This document shows, one piece after another, positions 14,880-20,299 of a stretch of DNA of 44,758 nucleotides; within the stretch, counting starts at the first letter, position 1, and each line of letters starts with the position of its first letter. The stretch spans positions 1-44,758 of the forward strand of contig JAGWBB010000032.1 of NCBI GenBank assembly GCA_021296095.1. The letters are read 5' to 3'. The translations under genes and the position numbers were made by a program. The stretch comes from Desulfurellaceae bacterium. Its GTDB lineage: Bacteria > Desulfobacterota > Binatia > Bin18. The notes beneath the pieces are model-generated. The model was given only the letters and a program-made list of their open reading frames with translations. It searched no databases and was not told where the DNA came from.

Positions 14880-15835
14880 CTAGCCATAGCGCTCTACCGC
14901 CCGCAGCCGCGCGCTGCGGGCACGCGGGTTAGTGGCCACCTCTGATCGGGTCGGGGTCAACGGTTTTGGGGTCAGGATCTTCACCTTTGGAGACCATCCA
15001 CAGGCACACAGCTGGAGCCGGGGCGGACACACACACGAGGCTGCCCAGCGCCGGAAGGCGGTCTTGACCAGGCGGTCTTCCAAAGAATGATAGGCCAGGA
15101 TGACCAGCCGGCCACCCGGCTTGAGCAGACGATAGCCGTCAGCCAGGAAGGTGGACAAATGGTGGAGTTCCCGATTGACCGCAATGCGGAGGGCCTGAAA
15201 CGCCCGGGTAGCCGGATGGACGGGCGAACGGGTCGAGCGGGACGGCCGCTTGATGACCTGCTCGATAGTCCGGACCAGGGCGACGGTGGTGGTCAAGGGA
15301 GACTTTTTACGCGCCTCAACCACGGCTCGGGCCAGCGCACCAGCGGCCGGCTCCTCGCCCCACTCGCGGAAGATCTGACGCAACTCGGCCTGGCTGGCGT
15401 GATTCACCACATCAGCCGCGCAGCCGGGCTCGGTCCGATCCATCCGCATATCGAGCGGACCGGCACGCAGAAAGCTGAAGCCCCGTTCGGCATCCTCAAT
15501 TTGCAGCGAGGAAAAGCCCAGGTCGAGCACCGCAGCGTCAACGCCCGACCAGCCCAGCCGGGCCAGGGTCGCCAGCGAGCGGCTGAAATTTTCCTGGACC
15601 AGGGTGATGCGGGCGCCCCAATCGGCCAGACGCTGTCGGGTCACGGCCAGCGCGTCAGCATCGCGGTCAAGTCCCAGCAGCCTGCCCTTCGGCCCTGTGC
15701 CAGCCAGCACCGCGGCGGCGGTGTCCCCGCCGCCCACGTGGGCCGCAGCCGCAGCTGGGCGAGCGTCTCCTCAAGCATCACCGGCAGGTGGCCTGAAACA
15801 GGGGCACGGGACGGACTGGCCAAGGCCGTCTCCAT
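14880..15835 (-). CDS. rsmH: 16S rRNA m4C1402 methyltransferase RsmH, split by a frameshift
   Basis: RsmH (MraW) methylates N4 of C1402 in 16S rRNA and usually heads the dcw cluster. An N-terminal piece from the ATG at 15835 contains the family signature HLPVMLEETL (residues 16-25). The rest, from about 15737 to 14880, lies in another frame and carries GGGDTAAAVLAGTGPKGRLLGLDRD (SAM-binding motif I), DLGFSSLQIEDAERGFSF, LDMRMD, and the C-terminal AYHSLEDRLVK. The junction is near 15737. By comparison with the family, about 8 residues before motif I are also missing, so the event is a deletion not divisible by three. It could be a real mutation or an assembly error. A GTG at 15737 would give only a truncated 285-residue protein. 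Confidence 0.85.
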
Positions 15836-15863
15836 TAGGCCTGTATGCTGGCACGGATACATA

Positions 15864-15956
15864 TCAGTCTGTGACAGGCACGAAGGGAAAAGGGGTGAAC
15901 CGGAACACGATTTCGTAGAGAACTCGTGGCGCCCGCCAGACACTGCCGCTCCTCAT
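15864..15956 (-). CDS. Possible 30-residue leader ORF upstream of rsmH
   Basis: Between the dcw promoter and rsmH an ATG at 15956 directly follows GGAGGTGGAGG, which resembles a strong ribosome binding site. It opens a 30-codon frame (begins MRSGSVWRAPRVLYE, ends PFPFVPVTD). It would start about 30 bases after the predicted transcription start. mraZ normally occupies this position, but the peptide shows no MraZ-like features. It may be a leader peptide, or an accidental frame in a G-rich leader. No function is assigned. Confidence 0.25.
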   Translation of the reverse strand: MRSGSVWRAPRVLYEIVFRFTPFPFVPVTD

Positions 15957-15992
15957 CCTCCACCTCCCAGTCCTCTGCGACACATCCCCTCG

Positions 15993-16021
15993 ACTATAAT
16001 CGTCAGCATTTTGCCTGTCAA
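15993..16021 (-). promoter_or_regulatory. Sigma70-type promoter of the dcw cluster
   Basis: On the minus strand TTGACA (16016-16021) is followed after exactly 17 bases by TATAGT (15993-15998), nearly consensus for housekeeping sigma70. Transcription would start near 15986, leaving a leader of about 150 bases before the rsmH ATG. This is the only strong promoter I see for the cluster. Confidence 0.75.
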
Positions 16022-16068
16022 GCAAAAATCCTAGGAAACTCAAGCAGTTTGCCGTCACATGACCTGCA

Positions 16069-16095
16069 TTGACTCAGCCCTGCGGCTCCGATACA
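16069..16095 (+). promoter_or_regulatory. Possible promoter of the aminotransferase-serA-purA transcript
   Basis: TTGACT at 16069-16074 is a good -35 element. The -10 is weak: GATACA at 16090-16095 (15-base spacing), or TACACC at 16092-16097 (17-base spacing). A start near 16103 would place the terminator hairpin at 16137-16175 inside the 5' leader. The minus-strand dcw promoter lies back to back about 50 bases away. Confidence 0.4.
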
Positions 16096-16136
16096 CCTTT
16101 TTGCGAACAGCAAGGATGTGTCGAAAGAAAGCTTTT

Positions 16137-16175
16137 GCCTGGACCGTGCCGATCACACGGTCCGGGCGTTTTTTT
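16137..16175 (+). terminator. Strong intrinsic terminator in the 5' leader (likely attenuator)
   Basis: Bases 16137-16148 pair with 16156-16167 in a 12-base-pair, GC-rich stem with one G-T wobble. The loop is 7 bases (CCGATCA), and G plus seven T residues (16169-16175) follow. This is a textbook rho-independent terminator on the plus strand. No plus-strand gene lies upstream for it to end. It lies only about 27 bases before the start of the aminotransferase gene, so conditional read-through of that leader is the simplest explanation. The sensing element is not recognised. Confidence 0.8.
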
Positions 16176-16201
16176 GGTGTGGTTGTGCGCTGGAGCACCA
16201 T

Positions 16202-17392
16202 ATGCAGAAACGGTATTTGTTAACCCCCGGACCGACCCAGGTTCCGCCCGAGGTTCTGCTGCGCATGTCGCAGCCGATGGTCCACCACCGCAGCCCGGAA
16301 TTCAGCCGGCTGTTCGCCGAGGTCCAAGCCGGTTTACAGCGGCTGTTTCAAACCGACCAGGACGTGCTCATCCTGGCCGCCTCAGGCACCGGCGCGATGG
16401 AGGCGGCGGTCTTCAACACCTGCTCGGCCGGGGAGAGTGTGCTGGTCGTCAACGGCGGCAAATTCGGCCAGCGCTGGCTCGAGATCTGTCGGGCGGCGGG
16501 CCTGACCGCAGTCGAAATCCGGGTCGAGTGGGGCCAGGCGGTGGCCGTTGAGACGGTCGCCCGGGCGCTTGAGCAGCACCCTGAAGTACGGGCCGTTCTG
16601 GTCCAGGCCAGCGAGACCTCAACCACGGTTCTGCATCCCGTCCAGGACTTGGCGCGCCTGACCCGCCACACTGATCGCCTGCTGATCGTCGACGCCATTA
16701 CCGCCCTGGGCGCAACCGCAGTCCCAATGGACAGCTGGGGGATTGACATTCTGGTCACCGGTTCACAAAAAGCCCTGATGCTGCCACCGGGTCTGGCCTT
16801 TGTGGCCCTCAGCGCTAAGGCCTGGCAGCGGACCGCAGCGGCCAGCCTGCCGCGCTTCTATTTTGATCTGCGCCGGGAGCGTCAGGCCCAGCACAAGCAT
16901 ACGACCGCCTACACCCCGGCCGTCTCGCTGGTTACTGGCCTGCACGAGGTCCTGCGTCTGCTGGAGGACGAAGGCCTGCCCCAGGTATACGCCCGCCACG
17001 CGCATCTGGCCCGGGCGACCCGGACCGCAGCCCAGGCCCTGGGCCTGCGCTTGCTGGCTCCCGAGCACCCCAGCCCGGCGGCCACCGGGGTGTGGCTGCC
17101 ACCCGAGATAGACGGCGGACAGCTGCTGAACGCCATGCGCACTCACATGGGGGTAGACATTGCCGGCGGCCAGGACCAGCTAAACGGAAAGATCGTGCGC
17201 ATCTCCCATATCGGCTATGCTGGCCCCTTTGACGTGATGATCGCCATCGGCGCCCTGGAGATGGCTCTAGTCTCGTTTGGCTGTGATATCGAACTCGGCC
17301 GTGGCGTTCGGGCGGCCCAGGAAGTCCTGCTGACGGGCTGGTCCGAGTTGAACCCTGTCTCGGAGACGGGTTCGGCAGGCAAAGGCCGTTGA
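16202..17392 (+). CDS. Class V aminotransferase (serine/phosphoserine or alanine-glyoxylate type)
   Basis: This PLP enzyme belongs to the class V group of alanine-glyoxylate, serine-pyruvate and SerC-replacing phosphoserine aminotransferases. From the ATG at 16202 it has 396 residues. Visible features are the substrate loop LLTPGPTQVPPEVL, the cofactor-phosphate region SGTGAMEAAVFN, the Asp of IVDAITALGA, and the PLP lysine K190 in TGSQKALMLPPG. The start follows GGAG at 6 bases; an open extension upstream runs through the terminator hairpin and is not coding. It is immediately followed by serA. This suggests it makes phosphoserine from SerA's product, 3-phosphohydroxypyruvate, but a photorespiratory-type glyoxylate role cannot be excluded. 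Confidence 0.9.
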   Translation: MQKRYLLTPGPTQVPPEVLLRMSQPMVHHRSPEFSRLFAEVQAGLQRLFQTDQDVLILAASGTGAMEAAVFNTCSAGESVLVVNGGKFGQRWLEICRAAGLTAVEIRVEWGQAVAVETVARALEQHPEVRAVLVQASETSTTVLHPVQDLARLTRHTDRLLIVDAITALGATAVPMDSWGIDILVTGSQKALMLPPGLAFVALSAKAWQRTAAASLPRFYFDLRRERQAQHKHTTAYTPAVSLVTGLHEVLRLLEDEGLPQVYARHAHLARATRTAAQALGLRLLAPEHPSPAATGVWLPPEIDGGQLLNAMRTHMGVDIAGGQDQLNGKIVRISHIGYAGPFDVMIAIGALEMALVSFGCDIELGRGVRAAQEVLLTGWSELNPVSETGSAGKGR

Positions 17393-17406: not shown

Positions 17407-18996
17407 ATGAGCCCCAAGGTCCTCATCACCGATTCCCTGGCTCCGCAAGGACTGGAGCGCCTCCAGTCCTACCCCGGCATCGAAGTCGAAGTGCGGCCCG
17501 GGCTGTCCACGGCTGAGCTGATCCAGCACATCCCGGCCTACCAGGCCCTGATCATCCGCAGCGGCACAAAAGTCACCCCTCCGGTGATTGCCGCCGCAAC
17601 CCAGCTCCAGGTTATCGGGCGGGCCGGGATCGGGGTCGATAATATCGCGGTCGAAGCGGCGACCAAGCGCGGCATTGTGGTCATGAATACGCCGGGCGGG
17701 AATAATGTCACCACCGCCGAGCACGCCCTCTCGATGATGCTGGCCCTGGCCCGGAATATCCCCCAGGCCAACGCCTCGATTCGAGCCGGGCGCTGGGAGC
17801 GGGGCAAATTTACCGGCAGCGAGGTGTGCAATAAGGTCCTGGGCATTATCGGCCTGGGCAACATCGGAGCGATTGTGGCCGAACGGGCGCTGGGACTGCG
17901 CATGCGGGTCATCGCCTTTGATCCGTTCATCACCCCGGAAGCCGCAGCCAAGCTGCGGATCGAGCCGGTGAGCCTGGACGAGTTGTACGCTCAGGCCGAC
18001 TTTATCACCGTCCATACTCCGCTGACCGAAGACACCCGGGGGCTGATTGATCGGGCCGCTTTTGGCCGGATGAAAACCGGGGTGCGGCTGATCAACTGTG
18101 CGCGGGGCGGGATCATTGACGAACAGGCGCTGCTGCACGCCCTCCAGACCGGTTGCGTTGCCGGCGCCGCCCTCGATGTCTTTGTTGAAGAGCCGCCCCC
18201 GGCCTCGCACCCCCTGCTGCAGCTCGACAACGTCATCTGCACCCCGCACCTGGGCGCGGCCACCGACGAAGCCCAGATCAATGTCGCGGTGGCAATCGCC
18301 GACCAGGTCGCCAACTATCTGACCCGGGGCGTGATTCAGCACGCGGTCAATTTTCCGTCGCTGACCCCAAAACTGATCGCCTTCCTCCAGCCCTACCTGC
18401 TGCTGGGTGAAAAACTGGGCAGCTTCTTAGCCCAGCTGATCGGCGAAGCGCCGCGCGAAGTCCACGTCGAATACACCGGCGATATTACCGACTACGACCT
18501 TGCCCCGGCCACCGCTGCGGTTCTGCGCGGGCTGTTGAGCTCTATTCTGGAATCGGACATCAACTACGTGAACGCCCCCCACATCGCCCGCGAACGGGGT
18601 GTGCGGGTGGTCGAGTCGCGCAGCAATCGGCCCAGCGATTTTCTCAACTCGGTCACCGTCAGCATTGTCAGCACGAGTGGCACCAACACGGTCGAGGGAG
18701 CGGTCTTCACCAACAATGTGGTCCGGCTCGTGCGGGTCAACACGTCGTATCTTGAAGCCGTGCCCGAAGGCCATATCATTGTCCTGCACAACCACGACGT
18801 GCCAGGCGTGGTCGGCAGTGTCGGGACGGTGCTGGGACAGCGCGGGATCAATATCGCGGGGCTCGAACTCGGGCGCGAACGGGCCGGCGGGCAAGCCCTG
18901 GCCCTGGTCCATGTCGACGCCCATGTGTCGGCCGAGGTCTTGGACGAACTGCGCGGTCTGGAGTCGGTCATTTCGGCGCAGCAGATTCACCTGTAA
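17407..18996 (+). CDS. serA: D-3-phosphoglycerate dehydrogenase SerA (long form)
   Basis: SerA oxidises 3-phosphoglycerate to 3-phosphohydroxypyruvate with NAD, the first step of serine synthesis. The 529-residue product is the long form. It has a substrate domain and an NAD domain with IIGLGNIGAIVAERA, with catalytic Arg (NCARGGIID), Glu (DVFVEEPPP) and His (ICTPHLGAAT). A 'regulatory' ASB domain follows from about residue 320, and a C-terminal ACT domain (HIIVLHNHDVPGVVGSVGTVLGQRGINIAGLELGR). The ACT domain suggests serine feedback. An in-frame TTG at 17389 overlaps the previous stop, but the ATG at 17407 gives the normal N-terminus. Confidence 0.97.
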   Translation: MSPKVLITDSLAPQGLERLQSYPGIEVEVRPGLSTAELIQHIPAYQALIIRSGTKVTPPVIAAATQLQVIGRAGIGVDNIAVEAATKRGIVVMNTPGGNNVTTAEHALSMMLALARNIPQANASIRAGRWERGKFTGSEVCNKVLGIIGLGNIGAIVAERALGLRMRVIAFDPFITPEAAAKLRIEPVSLDELYAQADFITVHTPLTEDTRGLIDRAAFGRMKTGVRLINCARGGIIDEQALLHALQTGCVAGAALDVFVEEPPPASHPLLQLDNVICTPHLGAATDEAQINVAVAIADQVANYLTRGVIQHAVNFPSLTPKLIAFLQPYLLLGEKLGSFLAQLIGEAPREVHVEYTGDITDYDLAPATAAVLRGLLSSILESDINYVNAPHIARERGVRVVESRSNRPSDFLNSVTVSIVSTSGTNTVEGAVFTNNVVRLVRVNTSYLEAVPEGHIIVLHNHDVPGVVGSVGTVLGQRGINIAGLELGRERAGGQALALVHVDAHVSAEVLDELRGLESVISAQQIHL

Positions 18997-19006
18997 GGAG
19001 AAAGGC

Positions 19007-20299
19007 ATGAGTACTCTGGTGGTCGTCGGCGTGCAGTGGGGAGACGAGGGCAAGGGCAAGGTGGTTGACCTGCTGGCACGCCAGGCCGATGTCATCGTCC
19101 GTTTCCAGGGCGGCAGCAATGCCGGCCATACCCTGGTTGTTGGCGGCAAAAAAACGATTGTGCGGCTCATTCCGTCGGGCGTCCTGCACGCCGGCAAAGT
19201 GTGTGTGATCGGCAACGGCATGGTCATTGACCCCGCTACCCTGGTGCAAGAAATCGACGCCTTACAGCAGCAGGGTTGTCTGACCGATCTGGAGCTGCTC
19301 AGGATCAGTGAAACCGCCCATCTCATCATGCCCTACCACAAGGCGATTGACCTGGCCCGCGAAAAGCGACGCGGTGAGGCCAAAATCGGTACGACCGGCC
19401 GGGGCATCGGGCCCAGCTATGAGGACAAGATGGCCCGGGTCGGTATTCGGTTTGTCGACCTGCTCGACGAGACCCTGTTTGAGGCCAAGCTGGCCCGCAA
19501 TGTGGAGGAAAAAAACACCTATCTGCGCACCATGCTGGACGAGCCGGAGCTTGATTTCAGGGCCATGTTTGACACCTACTGCCAACTCCGCGAGCGGCTG
19601 CGGGCGTGTATCGGCAACACCTCCCGCTATTTGCACGACGCGATCAGGAGCGGCAAGAAAGTCTTGTTTGAGGGCGCCCAGGGCACCCAACTCGACGTGG
19701 ACCACGGCACCTACCCGTACGTCACCTCTTCGAATACCGTTTCCGGAGCCGTGTGCACCGGGGCCGGTATTGCGCCGCAGCACATCCACAGCGTCATCGG
19801 CATCTCCAAAGCCTACGCTACCCGGGTCGGCGGAGGCCCCTTCCCCACCGAACTGTTTGACGCCGAGGGGGATCAGCTGCGTCAGGCCGGGGGCGAGTTC
19901 GGGACAGTCACCGGACGGCCGCGACGGTGCGGCTGGCTGGATACCGTAGTAGTCCGCACCGCAGCCCGGCTGAACGGGGTCGAGAGCCTGGCTCTGACCA
20001 AGATTGATGTCTTGAGCGGCCTCGACACCCTGCGGGTATGCACCGGCTACCGCTACAAGGGCCAGGACTATGACGAGGTTCCGGCCAGCGCCCACATGCT
20101 CGAACACCTCACCCCAGTCTATGAAGAGCTGCCCGGCTGGACCGAACCGCTGACCGATATTCGCAGCCTGGACGCCCTGCCGACGAACGCCCGGCGCTAT
20201 GTTGAGCGCATCGAGAGCCTGCTGGAGATCCCGATCAAAATGATTTCGGTCGGCGCCGGCCGGGAAGAGACGATCCTGATCCGGCCCTCGTTTTTCTAG
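19007..20299 (+). CDS. purA: Adenylosuccinate synthetase PurA
   Basis: PurA condenses IMP and aspartate with GTP to adenylosuccinate, the first committed step to AMP. The 430-residue product begins with the GTP loop and catalytic Asp (GVQWGDEGKGKVVDLLA). It contains RFQGGSNAGHTLVV with the catalytic histidine, TTGRGIGPSYEDKMAR, FEGAQGTQLDVDHGTYPYVTSSN, and the aspartate-binding VTGRPRRCGWLD. The ATG at 19007 lies 10 bases after serA with AAGGAG in front. It shares its stop region with the convergent membrane-protein gene (CTAG, 20296-20299). Confidence 0.98.
   Translation: MSTLVVVGVQWGDEGKGKVVDLLARQADVIVRFQGGSNAGHTLVVGGKKTIVRLIPSGVLHAGKVCVIGNGMVIDPATLVQEIDALQQQGCLTDLELLRISETAHLIMPYHKAIDLAREKRRGEAKIGTTGRGIGPSYEDKMARVGIRFVDLLDETLFEAKLARNVEEKNTYLRTMLDEPELDFRAMFDTYCQLRERLRACIGNTSRYLHDAIRSGKKVLFEGAQGTQLDVDHGTYPYVTSSNTVSGAVCTGAGIAPQHIHSVIGISKAYATRVGGGPFPTELFDAEGDQLRQAGGEFGTVTGRPRRCGWLDTVVVRTAARLNGVESLALTKIDVLSGLDTLRVCTGYRYKGQDYDEVPASAHMLEHLTPVYEELPGWTEPLTDIRSLDALPTNARRYVERIESLLEIPIKMISVGAGREETILIRPSFF

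Follow-up and report, generated by a model that had tools for sequence, protein, structure and literature searches.

The leader of the aminotransferase-serA-purA operon described here is probably the remnant of a transcriptional ZTP/ZMP riboswitch from which the aptamer has disappeared, the terminator staying on as an attenuator without a sensor. It lies on a contig of genome G000, the whole 44,758 nucleotides of which were analysed and are referred to as the window; the family of this genome, comprising 16 genomes, is labelled f1. By membership the leader is not a ZTP riboswitch, because the window does not contain the RF01750 aptamer (P1-J1/2-P2, P3 and pseudoknot over the gathering score). 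By descent, as comparison of the sequences suggests, it is most likely a ZTP riboswitch without its sensor. The leader precedes purine / one-carbon genes, and purine or one-carbon genes are among the targets of this riboswitch described in PMC2864571. The features of the region are as follows.

15993..16021, minus strand: divergent sigma-70-type promoter TTGACA-17-TATAGT directed toward rsmH, with 11 of 12 consensus bases
16069..16097, plus strand: predicted operon promoter, TTGACT (16069-16074), 17 nt, TACACC (16092-16097), a layout found throughout f1
16098..16136, plus strand: short stretch (39 nt) from the -10 box to the terminator, the place of the ZTP aptamer in related families
16136..16168, plus strand: terminator hairpin of 13 pairs, 9 of them G-C, with a loop of 7; arms GCCTGGACCGTG and CACGGTCCGGGC
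16169..16175, plus strand: T-run of the terminator (TTTTTTT), directly after the stem
16202..17392, plus strand: class-V aminotransferase (AGXT/SerC-like), first gene of the operon; Pfam Aminotran_5, best NCBIfam matches below their cut-offs
17407..18996, plus strand: serA, phosphoglycerate dehydrogenase; TIGR01327 above cut-off, ATG at 17407, frame open from TTG 17389
19007..20299, plus strand: purA, adenylosuccinate synthetase; NF002223 and TIGR00184 above cut-off

The element has the form of an intrinsic terminator or attenuator, a G+C-rich hairpin with a T-run attached, situated after a promoter and before a gene; 26 bases separate the end of the T-run (16175) from the aminotransferase ATG (16202), and inspection by eye of 16176 to 16201 revealed no evident promoter. 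With our own terminator scanner it was the sole terminator in the 44.8-kb window (score 31.0). An 800-kb sample of G000 and G007 yielded 22 others, the highest score among them being 26, and strong terminators of such kind are therefore sparse here. It is remarkable for its strength and not for the number of sites, since 1.2 kb contained 2 terminator-like sites against 0.9 +/- 1.0 in shuffled sequence. For the 142-base leader the computed folding energy is -58.2 kcal/mol, not equalled by any of 200 shuffles (z = -3.35); this z-score is probably carried largely by the terminator itself. The hairpin alone (12-pair core) gives -23.2 kcal/mol. The preliminary description, made from the sequence alone, had reported a strong intrinsic terminator ahead of a serine-pathway operon with no plus-strand gene upstream to end, and in each of these respects it was correct: the operon is identified by the profile matches listed above, and each of the upstream genes (rsmH, a PBP/ftsI-like gene and murE) is encoded by the minus strand. 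The terminator thus cannot serve as the end of an upstream plus-strand gene, and a role in ending divergent transcription was rejected since by eye the minus strand carries no T-run.

The promoter layout TTGACT-N17-TACA(T/C/G)C occurs in all 16 f1 genomes. The -10 hexamer in the window is weak, and the initial promoter scan did not list this promoter; on the grounds of the sequence layout TTGACT-N17-TACACC at 16069-16097 is nevertheless likely to be that of the operon, with a start near 16104, which would leave only about 33 transcribed nucleotides ahead of the terminator. The leader of about 100 bases first proposed is consequently upheld with regard to its terminator and probably not with regard to its transcribed length. 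Given that start, an upper hairpin CGATACACC...GGATGTGTCG is probably absent from the RNA. The leaders of G000 and the other genome of its genus are 97% identical.

Several further observations concern the neighbourhood. A frame beginning at GTG 16118 runs open through the terminator (16118-16201) into the aminotransferase, giving a protein of 424 rather than 396 amino acids; this extension was judged not to be coding, the codon being TTG in the sister genome and other genera lacking it. In the rsmH gene of the window the N-terminal SAM-binding motif appears to have a small deletion and a shifted frame (15690-15790, minus strand), and sister genome G001 is intact in this region; either the assembly is at fault here or the gene is broken. 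By eye, G000 and G001 have no mraZ in the interval from rsmH to the divergent promoter (15737-16000 in the window), and a MraZ-like frame is found there in G009 and G011, also of f1.

The origin of the leader is suggested by what stands at the same place in sister families. The aminotransferase was found (E<=1e-110) in 135 of the 148 genomes of the class that were analysed, all of which were searched with RF01750. In 58 of these 135, and in 12 of the 14 non-f1 loci first scanned, the riboswitch stands on the strand of the aminotransferase, 29-196 nt ahead of the gene. The larger families concerned are f2 (22/22), f12 (8/9), f15 (7/7), f6 (6/6), f8 (6/6) and f11 (5/5), and the small ones f13 (2/2), f3 (1/1) and f17 (1/1). 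No RF01750 match was found before the aminotransferase in f1 (16 genomes), f9 (39), f4 (7), f5 (7), f10 (3), f14 (2), f7 (1) or f16 (1); G122, whose contig begins at GCCTGGG and in which the presence of the riboswitch cannot be judged, is counted as a miss among the 135. Within f1 the search was negative genome-wide (0/16 at E<=0.01), and loci L014-L029 of that family gave no Rfam match at E<=5. A covariance search of the leader against Rfam, which had been suggested as a check, likewise returned no family at gathering score in the window. The gene order aminotransferase-serA-purA is kept across families in nearly all loci examined which have enough contig. With the order kept and RF01750 upstream of the orthologous aminotransferase, the window leader occupies the position that a ZTP riboswitch has in other families.

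In f8 (L124, L131, L138, L144) the ZTP aptamers before the aminotransferase have no T-run terminator and lie near the start codon; from this arrangement they possibly act by translational control. Ten further RF01750 matches were not assigned to the aminotransferase (G021:C2, G104:C11, G105:C10, G022:C4, G138:C610, G027:C271, G034:C217, G099:C330, G040:C28 and G020:C199). Among them, that in G022:C4 precedes serA-purA and that in G020:C199 is below cut-off.

The terminators themselves provide the second line of evidence. A terminator was detected in 12 of the 16 f1 genomes, and the conservation in relatives on which the first proposal had been made to depend is therefore present. All 12 open with GCCTGG and close with CCAGGC or CCGGGC (CCRGGC) before the T-run, as do those of the ZTP loci with a T-run, in which the terminator is mostly GCCTGGG...(T/C)CAGGC with a run of six to eight T behind it. 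In the latter the 3' end of the aptamer, CGCCUGGGC, overlaps the 5' arm of the terminator; in f1 the GCCTGG is kept in 12/12 and the full CGCCTGGGC is not. The distance from the -10 box to GCCTGG is 28-39 nt in these 12 genomes as against 71-97 nt in ZTP loci, and there is therefore no room for the aptamer in them. None of the 22 other terminators in the 800 kb from two f1 genomes has CCTGG within its first 8 bases. A covariance model (R1) was made with 17 terminators linked to ZTP riboswitches; f1 contributed none of them, and the f8 loci were omitted because they lack the T-run. With R1 the leader terminators of the 12 f1 genomes reach 17.4-24.1 bits (20.4 bits for that of the window) against a best background of 14.8 bits in 800 kb, besides one match of 19.7 bits (L186) which was rejected as it appears by eye to lie in coding sequence; the E-values of the f1 matches are individually weak (0.023-0.73 in 0.98 Mb). 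The f1 genomes in which no terminator was detected are G004, G005, G008 and G011 (genera g4, g5 and g7). In the g7 pair (G008, G011) the CCTGG stem persists and the T-run is gone, in line with the expectation for stepwise decay.

In ZTP RNAs one and the same segment serves as the 3' strand of aptamer helix P3 and as the 5' arm of the terminator (PMC10085676; PMC13273304). As described in PMC10085676, in the absence of a Z nucleotide the invading 3' arm displaces P3 and the terminator forms, and with ligand the aptamer resists invasion and transcription continues. Removal of the aptamer should thus leave termination as the default. We infer an aptamer deletion, the start site given above and a fixed read-through: in an ancestor of f1 the aptamer between promoter and terminator would have been deleted. 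Its last bases GCCTGG, which serve as the terminator's 5' arm, would have stayed, as would the T-run and the 3' arm that does the invading. The 5' arm would no longer be held, and the hairpin would form in every transcript. A constant share of the polymerases would then stop near 16175 and the others read into aminotransferase-serA-purA, the outcome being a ligand-independent attenuator, a fixed brake giving low basal expression. Against this reading, the terminator of the window is strong and not decayed, which would be odd for a mere relic.

That the hairpin is more than debris is indicated by its conservation. In the seven genomes of genus g2 none of 33 terminator sites is variable, against 42 of 218 elsewhere in the 250-base leader, including 8 of the 33 sites between the -10 box and the terminator; by our own arithmetic 0/33 would arise in g2 with a chance of about 0.001 if sites varied alike. 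The hairpin is thus kept by selection and the RNA preceding it is not. The two g1 genomes show 1 difference in 39 across the terminator. The attenuator-like terminator reported in the preliminary description is, accordingly, real, conserved and under selection. Covariation was set aside as proof of the f1 stem, there being too few changes: compensatory change was seen in 1 of 8 pairs in f1, no better than in shuffles, and in none in the combined set.

Purifying selection on a hairpin whose aptamer is gone also speaks for a regulated attenuator, with a trans-acting or ribosome-based sensor, at which a protein, the translation rate or the nucleotide pool alters read-through. To have a strong terminator ahead of three biosynthetic genes would make more sense if something could relieve it, and most g2 leaders (not that of G007) hold CCAAGG, which is able to pair with CCTGG and in some computed folds replaces the terminator. 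However, this pairing was not found in other genera, and the stretch before the hairpin is unconserved both between genera and within g2. Nor was a conserved leader peptide, a short open reading frame with start and SD before the terminator, found in f1: candidate starts differ or are missing between genera (none in 6 of 7 g2 genomes), and only one has an SD-like sequence. On balance we think regulation of this kind rather unlikely, though it deserves to be taken seriously.

Family f9 shows that a terminator can stand before this operon in other company. In 31 of its 39 genomes a terminator with the base GTCTGG/CCAGGC is found at the same place, and six f9 loci score 12.8-19.3 bits with R1. 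These leaders form a candidate structured RNA, RGGAC...GCAT..GGGGTCTGGCG-stem-CACCAGGC-T8 (L114:1409-1501, L208:1296-1388 and 29 other f9 leaders), which is about 90 nt long and conserved, and has one strong copy per genome; of its 12 pairs, 5 show changes on both sides. No Rfam match was obtained in the six f9 loci scanned, and a model of the f9 leader (R2) matched the window (15.8 bits) and ZTP terminators only weakly. The family was at first favoured as a second clear case of aptamer loss, a view weakened by the rooted tree, in which the deepest f9 lineages are (with low support) without the terminator; it may therefore be a separate gain within f9. We consider it improbable, if worth stating, that the ZTP riboswitch has been replaced more than once in the class by attenuators keeping or recreating GYCTGG/CCAGGC, the f1 form being a hairpin alone, to which a trans-acting factor responds, and the 90-nt f9 leader RNA possibly a new sensor for the same pathway.

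If GTCTGG/CCAGGC did originate within f9, such a sequence could arise without a ZTP ancestor, and if f9 converged upon it f1 could have done so too. This bears on the proposal that the terminator came first or separately, the ZTP aptamer being added in other families and f1 having an ordinary attenuator which never bore one; the f9 terminator, at the same place and with no sign of ZTP, is in its favour. Trees were constructed with FastTree and the topology test was carried out with IQ-TREE. In the tree built from the three operon proteins together, f1 stands beside f3 among the ZTP families, with weak support, and a position of f1 outside the ZTP-bearing families is 12.9 log units worse and not rejected (AU p = 0.10). 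In the rooted aminotransferase tree f1 and f3 are paired (0.59) and then joined to families without ZTP (0.69). A late gain of ZTP is thus compatible with the tree, which is one of the two main weaknesses of the case for aptamer loss, the other being the similar and possibly unrelated terminator of f9. Against the terminator having come first, however, GCCTGG is the fixed 3' end of the ZTP aptamer in the 17 non-f1 loci behind R1, so that its predating the aptamer would be a coincidence, and f3 (G017), to which f1 is closest in either tree, albeit with low support, carries the full riboswitch. We regard this order of events as quite improbable.

A new and very small RNA sensor, in accord with the read-through by an unknown RNA sensor first proposed, has in its favour the fold of the leader and the hairpin in 12/16 f1 genomes, but is highly improbable given about 33 transcribed nucleotides before the terminator with no conserved element and no Rfam match, the 28-39 nt pre-terminator stretch being unalignable between genera and varying freely within one genus.

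On the reading preferred here, that of a terminator which has outlived its aptamer, a single operon in a single class presents full riboswitches, an aptamer-less terminator under selection and leaders with neither. It can be tested in this class whether an expression platform still has a function, as a fixed brake, once its sensor is lost. Riboswitch death is little documented, and our literature search, which covered lost, degenerate and vestigial riboswitches as well as orphan expression platforms, found nothing on loss of an aptamer with a kept terminator. The work also adds the aminotransferase-serA-purA operon to the ZTP targets in this class, for which no paper was found in a search of the literature.

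Among known systems, the serC RNA motif lies before serine genes in the alphaproteobacteria. It had been put forward as the nearest analogue, and a covariance-model test gave no match to it in the window or the f1 loci; the relevant relative is the ZTP/ZMP riboswitch. The f9 leader resembles that of f1 in its operon and place, in having a terminator without a ZTP aptamer and in the similar base of the stem, but differs in its leader and stem, with the conserved GGGGTCTGGCG...CACCAGGC-T8, and is possibly of separate origin. From the ZTP/ZMP riboswitch (pfl motif, RF01750), a transcriptional ON switch, f1 differs in being without the aptamer, and with it shares the operon and the place before it, the promoter layout and the GCCTGG/CCRGGC terminator.
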